Part shown: positions 19,790 to 47,671 of the stretch, piece after piece
How the letters are laid out: each line of letters starts with the position of its first letter
Position numbering within the stretch: position 1 is the first letter of the stretch
Source of the DNA: Gorsachius magnificus
Taxonomy: Eukaryota; Chordata; Aves; Pelecaniformes; Ardeidae
Reading direction: 5' to 3'
Assembly (NCBI GenBank): GCA_034008185.1
Contig: CM067104.1
Coordinates: 2,624,419-2,688,418, forward strand
DNA: 64,000 nucleotides
Notes under the pieces: model-generated
Told to the model about the DNA's origin: nothing
Databases searched by the model: none
What the model saw: the letters and a program-made list of their open reading frames with translations, nothing else
Position numbers and translations under genes: made by a program

Positions 19790-20420
19790 GGGCCCGCACA
19801 GAGCTCAGCCGGGGGTGCTCCCACGGCCGAGAGTGGGTGCCCCCCCCCCATGTGCCCCAGCCCGTGAGTGCCCCCCCCCGCCGGGGTGCTCCCCCGGCGG
19901 AGAGTGGGTCCCCCCCCCCCGTGTGCACCCCCCCATATCCCCATTGTGGGGACCCACTCGTGCGCCCCCCCGTGTGCACCCACCTGTAACACCCTGTGTG
20001 CCCCAGCCCGTGCACCCCCCCCGTGTGTCCCCCATGTGCCCCCCCATGAGTGCCCCCCCATGCACCCCGTGTGCCCCCACCCGTGTGCACCCCCCATATC
20101 CCCATTGGAGTACCCCCCCCCGTGTGCTCCCCCATGGGTACCCACCCATGAGCAACCCCCTGTGTAAACACCCGTGTGCCCCCCCCCGGCACCCCCGTGG
20201 GTGCCACCCGTGAGCCCCAAAACCCACGCAGCGGGGCCTGCACGGATCTCAGCCCGGGGGCGCTCCCACGGCCGGGACTGGGCGGCCCCCCCGTGTGCAC
20301 CCCCCCGTGTGCCCCCCCCGTGTGCCCCCCCGTGTGCCCCCCCCGTGTGCACCCCCCCGTGTGCCCCCCCCGTGTGCCCCCACCCATGAGCACCCCCGTG
20401 TGTGAACACCCGTGTGCCCC
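19790..20420. repeat. CCCCCCGTGTGC minisatellite with a 0.45-kb outer repeat
   Basis: C-rich units with GTGTGCACCCCCC or GTGTGCCCCC. A longer module (GGGGCCCGCACAGAGCTCAG then GCTCCCACGGCCG) occurs at about 19,790 and again at about 20,235, so the array has an outer period near 450 bp. The second module is also present beside copy B at 46,690-46,760. Confidence 0.85.
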
Positions 20421-20519
20421 CCGTGCCCCGCTCTGCCCCCCCCCGGGCTCCCCCCGTGCCCCCCCCCAGCCCCGCGCAGGCCCCGCCCCCCTCGCTCAGG
20501 CCCCGCCCCCCCGCGCTGC

Positions 20520-20529
20520 TCTCGCGAGA
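20520..20529. promoter_or_regulatory. DCTN2: TCTCGCGAGA core promoter element, DCTN2 copy A
   Basis: A perfect 10-bp palindrome TCTCGCGAGA lies 95 bp upstream of the DCTN2 start codon in a CpG island. This motif is a known vertebrate housekeeping-promoter element, often bidirectional. There is no TATA box. The same element is at 46,538-46,547 for copy B. Confidence 0.7.
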
Positions 20530-43900: not shown

Positions 43901-46442
43901 CTCCTGCCCAGCCCCGCCGTGGGCTGCAAAGCCTGGCGGGACGGGGGTGCCGCGGGGGGGGCACCCACCGGCCCTGGGCAGCACCCTCGGCGCAGGCGGC
44001 ACCACTGGCGGGGCCACGAGGCCGCCGGGGCAGGAGCACGGTGTGGCCGAGAGCCAAGGTGGGGGAGCGGGGGGGGTCCCGAAGGACAAGCAGGGCAGCG
44101 CGGGCGGTCAGGCAGGGCGGATGCAGAGAGGGCGAGGGAGAGCAGGGAGGCGGCAGCAGCACCCCGGCGCACCCCGGCACCCACAGCCGCTGCCGCGCTG
44201 CCTCCCCTCCGCCCCGCGGCGCCGGGACCCACAGCCGGGACCGGGCGACGCAGCGACAGGCAGCGGCTACGGGGCCCTGGGCGCACCCGCATGCAAAAAT
44301 CAACCCCCACCGGCATGCAAAACCAGAAGCAGCGAACGGGCTTACTTGTGCAAACTAGTGTCCAGGCAAGGTGGGGAGCAGGGGGGGGAAGAGCGGTGGG
44401 AAAACGCAGGTCAGTTCAGCGCGCCAGAGCCAAGAAACACACAGAAGCTGCGCCAGGGGCTCCCGGGAGAGGAGGGGACCGCAACTAAAACCCCGGCAAC
44501 CCCTCGCCTCCTGCCTGCAGCGGGGGCCGCGCGGGAGGGAAAGCAGTGGGGGAGTCACCGCGGCGGCACCGCTCGATTCTCGGGCACCGCTTTGGCGTGA
44601 CCGGGGCCTGACGGGGGCAACTTTGGGTGGAAACAGCCCGTTCCAGCTGGCCTTGCGGCCCCGGCTCTCGCAAGGCATCTCTTTGCCCCCCTCAGAACCG
44701 GGGGCCGGCTACACGGCGAGCCCCTGCCCCACGTGCAGCGCACGATGCCACGCCGGCCCATGCTGGCACAGACCCCGTGTCCCCGCAGTCGCTGGCTGCG
44801 CCGCGGGGAGAAGCCAGCTCTCGCCTCCGCGCTGCCGCGGCCCGGCTCCCCCTCACCCTCTCAGGCCAACCGGGAGTGCGTGCCGGCAAAGCGGGGCCCG
44901 GGGCACCGAGCAGCCGTTTGGGCCCTGATCCACGAGCGCCCGCTGGCTTTCAGCCTGACCGGCAGAGGCCGGGGGTCGCCATGCAGCCCCGCGGGCGCCC
45001 CTCGTGCCGTGCCGGCCTCGAGGACGGGGCCCCCCGCTGCACACCCCACGTCAAAGCCGCCGTGCGCCAGCCCCACGCAGAACGGCCACGGCCTGGCTGT
45101 GAGGGGCTGCGGCACGGGGCTGCTCTGTGGGACCCCCCCGCCACTCGGAGCTGGTTTATGGGGCGAACCCACCTCAACGGGCCCCCCTCGTCCTCCGGGT
45201 GCTGCCCGCCGGGCACTGCCTCTGCAAACACAACGGGGACGGGGGGGCTGCCCAGCCCTGCTCACTTCTGCTGCCCTCGGCCACGTCACGCAGGCTGTGG
45301 ATGCCGGGGGTGGGGACGCCCACCCTGCGTGGGGCGGGGGCTGCACCCCGACCTCGCTTCCTGGCCCCCCAAAGCTCTGCCAGGCTGAGAGATGGGGTGG
45401 CGCGTCCCTGGGACACCTCACCGTGGGGGGGACCTGGCACTGCAGGGGCGCGTGCGGGGACGGGAGCCCTTTCCCTGACGCCGTGCTGGTCCCGCTGCGC
45501 CGGACGGCTGCGGGGTGGGGGCACGGGCACACTCCCTCGCCCCCGCCCCGCGGCACGGCCCCGGCCAGGCCTTACCGCCTCGAACTCGGCCTGGTCGTCC
45601 TCGGGCAGGTCGCTGGTCTCGTAGACGTCGGGTTCGTTCCAGGCCTGGGGCGCAAACGGGCTCCGCTGAAGCCCCAGCTCCCCTCCGCCGTTTATCACCC
45701 ATCCCTCATCAAATCCCCCACAGCTGCCCCAAACCCCTTCAGGCACCCCCCCAGCTCCCTGCCCCCCCTCACCCCCCATCTCCCCACACACTCCACGGCC
45801 CCGTGGCACCCCTGATGTCCCCAAACTCCCCACTCACTGCCCCTGGCCCCCAACACCCCCACACGCCCTGGGCCCTCACAGGGACCCTGATTCCCACAAC
45901 CGCCCCCAGCACCCCGCCTACTCCCACCCCCCCAGAGACCCCCCTTCCACACACCCCCCGCACCCCCTCGCACCCCCTGGCCCCCTCACTACCCCGAGAC
46001 ACCCCCACCCCCTCCCTTCCCCTCGCTCCCCACACACCCCACACGGAGCCCCTCATTCTCCCCCGCATCCCCCAGGCCCCCCGATCCCCTCAGACCCCTT
46101 CAGTCCCCTCGGACCCCCGGCCCCATCGGACCCCTCTGACCCCCTGCAGACCCCCCAAATCCCCCCCATCCCCTCACTCTCCCCTCACGCCCCCCAAATC
46201 CCCTCAGACCCTTCGACTCTATCAGACCCCCCCAGGCCCTCAGACCCCCCCAGTAACCCCCCGACACCCCCTAATTCTGCCCCAGCCCCCTGATCCCCTC
46301 AGGCCCCCCACAGCCCCCTGACCCCCTCACCCCCCCCAAATCCCCCCCATCCCCTCACTCTCCCCTCACGGCGCCCCCGCCCCCGGCCCCCCCCGCACTC
46401 ACGATGCCGGGCACGGCGGTCGGCGTACTTGGGGTTGGCCAT
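37943..46442 (-). CDS. DCTN2: Dynactin subunit 2 (dynamitin), copy B, minus strand
   Basis: Same gene as copy A and head-to-head with KIF5A, the arrangement I recall for human, so this is the syntenic position. Exons 5' to 3': 46442-46403, 45644-45576, microexons 44354-44346 and 43353-43348, 42615-42518, 42399-42338, 39626-39528, 39447-39287, fused 39217-39043, 38966-38928, 38805-38728, 38596-38525, 38407-38305, 38197-38106, 38029-37943. Lesions: exon 1 has four extra bases after GCCGACC (frameshift); the third large exon has one extra A (GTGGAAGCACC against GTGGAGCACC in A); the end of the CDAVTFE-type exon, the next intron and the following acceptor are missing, fusing two exons as TFERRGGPP...EATVRCEPDSQ. 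It retains what copy A lost: the RLGTKGV end, the VRCEPDSQ end, and the intact 39-nt NPLLAGLKGSSLV exon with its CACAG acceptor. Confidence 0.93.
40990..42230 (+). mobile_element. CR1 LINE in DCTN2 intron, copy B
   Basis: Inverted counterpart of the CR1 at 24,820-26,045, so plus-strand here. It contains an extra tandem duplication of about 55 bp (GGAATCAGCCCCCGCGGGGA twice) that copy A lacks. Confidence 0.85.
43348..43353 (-). other. DCTN2: DCTN2 6-nt microexon (EL), copy B
   Basis: The reverse strand reads CGCAAG|GAGCTG|GTAAGA, identical to copy A including both splice sites. Confidence 0.75.
44346..44354 (-). other. DCTN2: DCTN2 9-nt microexon (FAQ), copy B
   Basis: The reverse strand reads ACTAG|TTTGCACAA|GTAAG, identical to copy A. 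Confidence 0.85.
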
Positions 46443-47671
46443 GGCCGGGGCCCGTACCGGGGGGGCCGGGGCCGGTACCGGGGGGGCCGGGCCGGGATCC
46501 GGTCAGCGCCGGGCAGGGCCGGGGCGGGCGGGACCGGTCTCGCGAGAGCAGCGCGGGGGGGCGGGGCCTGAGCGGGGGGGGGGGCCTGGGGGGGGGGGGC
46601 ACCCACGAGGGTGCCCGGGGGGGGTGATACAGGGGGTTGCTCATGGGTGGGATCCATGGGGGAGCACACGGGGGGGGGCACACGGGGGGGCCGCCCAGTC
46701 CCGGCCGTGGGAGCACCCCCGGGCTGAGATCCGTGCAGGCCCCGTTGCGTGGGTTTGGGGGTCACGGGGGGGGGGGAGGGGGGCTGGGGGGGGGGCGGTG
46801 CCCCTGACTGCGCGTCCCTGCTCCCGCCTGGACCCCCGGGCCTGGGCAGGGCCACCAAGGACACGAGTGTGCCCGGCCTCAGCGCCGGGGGGGCCGTGAG
46901 TCAGGAGTGCTGGCTTCTCGCGGGGGGAGGGGAGCTGAGCGGGGGGGGCCTGGCCCTGCGCCCACCCCCCCAGGGCCGCCGCCCCCCCCACCCCCCCCAC
47001 CGGATTCCGTCCACCTTAAGAGCCGCGGGCAGCTCCACCTTAACGCGGGGCGGGGGGGGGGGGCGTGTGGGGGCGGGGGGGCGGCTTCTCCCCCCCCCCC
47101 CGGTACCGGGGCTGCAGTGGCGACAGCAGCGCGGTCACTGGAGCAGGGGCAGCGGGAGCTGCGGAGCATCCCCCGCCCGGCGCCGCCCTCCCTCCGCATC
47201 CCGCACCCCCGGGCAGCATCCTGCATCCTTGGGCAGCTCCTGCATCCCTGGGTACCACCCCGCATCCCTGGGTACCATCCTGCACCCCTGGGTGCCACTC
47301 AGCACCCCTGGGGACCGCCCGCCTGCATCCCTGGGTACCACCCGGATCCCTGGGTACCACCCGGCATCCTTGAGCAGCATCCCGCACCCCCGGGCAGGGG
47401 CACCCTGCACCCCTGGGTACCACCCGCATCCCTGGCTACCACTCAGCACCCCCGGGTACCATCCTGCCACCCTTGGGTACCCCTTGACCCTTAGGTTGTA
47501 ACCGGCACCCCCGGGTACCGCCCGCATCCCCCCCACCCCCTCGAGACCAGCAGCTCCCTTCCCCCCCCCCCCCGGCCCCCCCCCCCGCCGGCCCCACCAG
47601 GCCACAGGTCCGTGCCGGTCCGGCCCCCAACCGGCCAAACCGGGGGGCGGGGGCCCCCCCCCCCCCGGGGC
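46443..47671. promoter_or_regulatory. Head-to-head DCTN2 / KIF5A promoter interval
   Basis: About 1.2 kb of CpG- and G/C-run-rich DNA between the divergent DCTN2 copy B and KIF5A. It contains TCTCGCGAGA at 46,538-46,547 and C/G homopolymers near 46,570, 47,050, 47,090 and 47,560. A 20-bp minisatellite built on CATCCCTGGGTACCACCC occupies 47,195-47,520. The KIF5A start codon and its first 29 or so codons should fall here but cannot be found. Confidence 0.6.
47195..47520. repeat. 20-bp CCTGGGTACCACCCGCATCC minisatellite
   Basis: About 15 imperfect tandem units immediately upstream of the first readable KIF5A exon. Confidence 0.9.

Follow-up and report, generated by a model that had tools for sequence, protein, structure and literature searches.

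Two near-identical, inverted DCTN2 copies at a GC-rich scaffold end of Gorsachius magnificus are probably one locus assembled more than once

Introduction

Does the ardeid bird Gorsachius magnificus carry two DCTN2 genes, or has one gene been written more than once into its assembly? The question is raised by a stretch of 64,000 nucleotides (hereafter the window; assembly GCA_034008185.1, contig CM067104.1, positions 2,624,419 to 2,688,418 of the forward strand), in which DCTN2 stands twice, as the inverted arms A and B around a spacer, with KIF5A next to arm B. A sequence-only reading described this as a palindrome whose copies were very young, gene-converting or the same locus assembled twice, and pointed out that a real palindrome would double the dose of dynamitin. 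Excess dynamitin (p50) is harmful, as is known from overexpression work. The analyses reported here indicate that the palindrome is probably a product of assembly, in which a single DCTN2 locus was laid down more than once.

Results

The arms are near-identical outside 20 garbled blocks

Self-comparison of the window showed an inverted repeat with arm A at 20,219-29,810 (plus strand) and arm B at 46,757-37,346 (minus strand). The inverted duplication exists as first described, with arm ends within about 15 bases of those proposed. Inverted matches between the arms were found along the whole stretch, and the main pieces had BLAST E values of 0.0, which excludes chance; the longest exact run common to both arms is 741 bases. 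Beyond the arm ends, weaker similarity (74%) continues to 20,179 and 46,794 through a minisatellite, and arm A loses its 5' likeness to arm B inside a C-rich minisatellite at 19,771-20,465 (plus strand). As had been stated, the arms hold the promoter side, the exons, the introns with an intronic repeat, and the 3' flank. The intronic repeat (25,002-25,448) is about 69% like a repeat in the spacer (34,785-35,240), which in turn is about 69% like an element at 7.7-8.2 kb, beside a reverse transcriptase domain; the CR1-like identity proposed for the intronic repeat is plausible on sequence grounds. The name DCTN2 was borne out by the Pfam family Dynamitin (PF04912), matched in three forward frames of arm A (E 6.6e-24, 6.2e-9 and 5.6e-19), and by two exons that match Protein Data Bank chains named 'Dynactin subunit 2' (E 3.8e-10 and 1.9e-16).

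The end-to-end alignment of the arms comprised 9,999 columns, 8,054 of them almost identical and the remaining 1,945 contained in 20 garbled blocks. Arm identity outside these blocks is very high, and the difference between the arms is bimodal, either almost perfect or scrambled. The 57 difference clusters consist of 20 blocks of more than 15 columns, 19 one-base indels, 10 isolated single-nucleotide variants (SNVs) and 8 small others; the long arm-to-arm likeness claimed earlier was thus upheld as near-identity over most columns, but it is not uniform. Seventeen blocks are unequal in length, with the shorter version in arm A in 8 and in arm B in 9, and three are equal. The shorter version in 6 of the 17 amounts to 9-32 bases with 0-11% A+T, and in some blocks (e.g. 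27,110-27,195 and 27,969-28,194) each arm is without a part that is present in the other. Intron 1 of copy A contains a G-run filler of 69 nearly pure G bases (21,433-21,501, plus strand) where arm B is more varied. In arm B, an intronic stretch of about 80 bases (41,155-41,233) recurs out of place at 41,305-41,385 (90% alike); the stretch is single in arm A.

The 10 isolated SNVs fall in 6,944 strictly clean columns, a divergence of about 0.14% and an allele-level likeness of the copies; one of the ten is the first alignment column, the left side of which was not tested. Nine of the ten are transitions (P 3.6e-4) and seven lie at CpG (P 3.0e-4). Along the arms there are three in 190 clean columns at the 5' end, five in 728 at the 3' end and two in about 6,029 between, in bins that were chosen after the positions had been seen and that count three edge columns twice.

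The coding sequences of both copies are broken in different places

Fourteen exons were placed on copy A (arm A, plus strand), all within 20,625-29,216, and transferred to copy B (arm B, minus strand) via the arm alignment. Eight of them (exons 2, 4, 5, 6 and 10-13) are identical between the copies, and exon 14 differs by one SNV, synonymous by our own reading. In copy B, frameshifts are caused by a four-base insertion in exon 1 (46,403-46,442) and a one-base insertion in exon 3 (42,518-42,615), and a lesion at 38,959-39,114 has removed the tail and donor of exon 7, intron 7 and the exon 8 acceptor and garbled the middle of exon 8, the end of which is kept. In copy A, the 3' end of exon 3 is garbled in frame (24,484-24,509), where copy B keeps the conserved GTKG; exon 8 (28,093-28,146) is without 12 in-frame bases near its end that copy B keeps; and at 28,163-28,225 the exon 9 acceptor is replaced by poly-C and exon 9 is two bases short (37 vs 39). 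The coding damage is complementary, affecting exons 1, 3, 7 and 8 in copy B and exons 3, 8 and 9 in copy A. An intact open DCTN2 was found in neither copy, and neither as written can encode normal dynamitin. The doubled dynamitin dosage suggested by the sequence-only reading does not follow, since both copies are broken as written; nothing here shows any extra dynamitin, and a doubled dose is unsupported.

A 2-kb piece of arm A, taken from its 5' part, served as query against the 1.18-Gb assembly (36 sequences), with 83 matches listed and 40 of 172 first-look candidates scored, so that the counts are lower bounds. Among the matches listed, query positions past 1,310 of 2,000 (the end of intron 1, exon 2 and part of intron 2) matched only arms A and B. 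Dynactin is essential in animals, and to our knowledge an animal without dynamitin is not plausible, so that at least some of the lesions must be errors.

Similar damage is present in KIF5A on the same contig

KIF5A was located by tblastn with an approximate query (hits of at least 55% identity) as 24 segments at 47.7-60.5 kb (47,675-60,458, plus strand), divergent from copy B, and it occurs once in the window, to which this count applies. DCTN2 and KIF5A lie head to head in human as well, and copy B was therefore taken as native and copy A as the extra one, in agreement with the original assignment. Relative to an approximate human protein sequence, pieces are lost in three KIF5A exons, two of them with frame changes. 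In the first exon (47.6 kb), residues 1-30 could not be located, and the remainder is preceded by C-rich filler; the exon at 55.68-55.84 kb has lost codons, with frame changes; and that at 56.45-56.55 kb has lost about 20 bases, again with frame changes. Because KIF5A, once in the window, shows the same kind of damage, the damage is a property of this contig and not only of a decaying duplicate, and the DCTN2 coding lesions look like consensus errors.

A third, partial rendering of DCTN2 lies in the spacer

The spacer (29,811-37,345) is asymmetric and consists partly of interspersed repeats that are also found in the neighbouring contig. Its size is about 7.5 kb, as reported before, but it is not all unique: three stretches, at 29,882-30,112, 30,138-30,376 and 31,105-31,332 (together spanning 29,882-31,332, plus strand), repeat parts of DCTN2 introns 1 and 4. 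This third rendering has the orientation of arm A and lies in the first 1.5 kb past it. Part of intron 1 comes first and is followed, after a jump of about 4.5 kb, by intron 4 in two pieces with 728 bases between them. Arms A and B and the spacer fragment could be compared at two garbled places. In intron 1, the fragment contains one stretch that is in A and not in B and one 37-base stretch that is in B and not in A; in intron 4, it contains a 58-base stretch present only in A and then a 33-base stretch present only in B. A mobile-element insertion was considered as the source of the 728 bases (30,377-31,104) and rejected, as no clear target-site duplication was seen by eye at the junctions.

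The palindrome lies at the GC-rich end of its scaffold

The end of the window is the end of the scaffold (C24; 2,688,418 bases). The only run of N in the window, a 500-N scaffold gap at 10,163-10,662, lies outside the pair, so that no gap stands between the copies, and positions 10,663-64,000 form the last contig of the scaffold (53 kb). In 10-kb bins, guanine-plus-cytosine (GC) content is 64-74% in the window from 10 kb on and 69-74% in the arms and KIF5A; the 100 kb preceding the window has 58-65%.

Discussion

Three lossy renderings in one contig at a scaffold end, with extreme GC content, are best read as a false duplication. A single DCTN2 locus next to KIF5A, where GC content is very high and the sequencing poor, would have been laid down as arm B, again in reverse as arm A, and as a fragment in the spacer; the renderings would have lost different bits, and in several places G/C filler would have remained. 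The extra rendering would then not exist in the animal. This explanation, one of those named by the sequence-only reading, held up on the near-identity outside the blocks, the complementary lesions, the similar lesions in KIF5A and the lack of any other exon 2/intron 2 match among those listed. Two molecules are suggested by the few clean differences; the arms may accordingly represent both alleles, which would make this a 'heterotype' false duplication whose errors were left unpolished.

Several observations weigh against an assembly product, and some of them speak for a real, recent inverted duplication, by which copy A would have been inserted near the native DCTN2-KIF5A pair, the arms would be alike through youth or gene conversion, and the blocks would be sequencing or consensus damage. 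We regard this account as less probable, but by no means remote. Neither junction has an N gap, and on each side the sequence flanking copy A is unlike that flanking copy B (minisatellites on the left against KIF5A, and 29,811 onward against 37,345 backward); a real inserted copy gives such flanks naturally, an artefact only by way of two wrong joins. At the site where the spacer fragment has 728 other bases, the two arms have 7 G/C bases in common (26,091-26,097 of arm A), and independent errors would not give such a shared stretch. The clean SNVs, mostly CpG transitions, look mutational and suit alleles or paralogues rather than repeated reading of one molecule; base-calling errors linked to methylation could produce a similar picture. 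The SNVs are also found mainly near the arm ends, where bins holding 918 of the 6,947 clean columns contain 8 of the 10, as interior gene conversion would give, although polishing with ambiguously mapped reads could perhaps yield a uniform interior too. Nor do all blocks represent losses: the garbled version at 24,484 is the longer one (A), and an additional, displaced copy stands in arm B at 25,715. The five blocks nearest the 5' end, situated in minisatellite or G-rich sequence, could vary for ordinary reasons, and the lesions in KIF5A prove poor consensus, not false duplication. A real duplication, for its part, needs the third fragment with its 4.5-kb jump, in a contig that has proved faulty. 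Beyond copy A, Pfam in six frames (E 0.01) over 1-9,989 and 10,663-20,201 detected only a reverse transcriptase and no gene partner. That the bird has a genuine, recent and possibly gene-converting inverted duplication of DCTN2 by KIF5A, with the gene doubled and a lineage that must tolerate or compensate the dose, is put forward only tentatively.

The inverted arms would also suit a foldback (strand-switch) chimeric long read built into the contig as a mirror copy. Such reads exist, at about 0.55-0.6% of Oxford Nanopore genomic reads according to the available text of PMC12870357, which gives virtually none for PacBio high-fidelity (HiFi) Revio reads and has an example with about 2 kb between segments, far shorter than 7.5 kb. 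A foldback should have a symmetric centre, and the spacer has 7.5 kb of sequence that is not mirrored; a foldback chimera was therefore discarded as the main cause and is given very little weight, which leaves the two wrong joins of an assembly product without that source. Two old paralogues, both decaying to pseudogenes, would account for coding lesions in both copies. This was rejected in view of the near-identity of the copies, with 8 of 14 exons identical and a clean divergence of about 0.14%, and seems the least credible of the alternatives; the lesions are block dropouts of the KIF5A kind, the stretch of the 2-kb query past 1,310 has no third copy among the matches listed, and the gene serves an essential complex. 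A single locus laid down more than once remains the preferred explanation.

False duplications are divided in the accessible part of PMC9516828 into heterotype (allelic) and homotype (error-driven). In three Vertebrate Genomes Project assemblies described there, 0.3-2.3% false duplication remained, of which 61-92% was on the same scaffold, and the three heterozygosity values given (0.22, 0.34 and 0.95%) all exceed the clean divergence of the arms. The DCTN2 pair resembles the cases in that part of PMC9516828 in having near-identical gene copies on one scaffold with allele-level or error-like differences; unlike them, with gaps as a sign, it is without a gap, inverted and separated by a 7.5-kb spacer, the gap being one of several characteristics and not required per case. 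According to the portion of PMC9974502 at hand, extreme GC makes the euchromatin of chicken dot chromosomes (58.7% GC) inaccessible to HiFi and short reads and less so to Nanopore; the present sequence is more GC-rich still. The lesions are like the GC-driven losses in bird genes in the available text of PMC9516821 and PMC9974502, in which GC-rich exons are lost or frameshifted in assemblies; those texts concern mainly missing regions, gaps and single false indels, whereas the short blocks seen here, inside a contig, have been reduced in length or substituted, in some cases with G/C filler.

The long inverted arms, the spacer and an interior that seems uniform recall gene-converting palindromes such as those on sex chromosomes. 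Unlike these, the DCTN2 arms are short and carry 20 garbled blocks, both copies are broken, and a third partial copy lies in the spacer. A literature search found no work on DCTN2 and KIF5A in connection with microchromosomes, and one on DCTN2 duplication in bird assemblies returned only work that was judged unrelated by title and opening of the abstract.

Taken at face value, the assembly would give a false gene gain together with two false pseudogenes of an essential motor-complex subunit. Looking for complementary lesions, and comparing them with a neighbouring gene, offers an inexpensive flag for false duplications that needs no reads. A real palindrome would mean an unusual shift of dosage in a complex that tolerates excess dynamitin poorly.

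Additional features of the window

Approximate queries for GLI zinc fingers, CDK4, DDIT3 and PIP4K2C gave no match within the final 164 kb of the scaffold (E 1e-3). Pfam in six frames of the spacer (E 0.01) identified as its only family the gag remnant of an endogenous retrovirus (Gag_p30, PF02093, E 5.5e-8; 33,172-33,534, plus strand). The reverse transcriptase domain to the left of the arms (RVT_1, E 3.8e-30; 8,080-8,721, minus strand) probably belongs to a CR1-type element. An Rfam IRE_II match at 2,157-2,188, near A-rich repeats, scored 32.9 bits against a gathering score of 30 and is possibly due to chance. Many minisatellites were seen in the left flank and around KIF5A, and a tandem array at 13,232-14,021 consists of about 15 copies of a 52-base unit with 94% matches.

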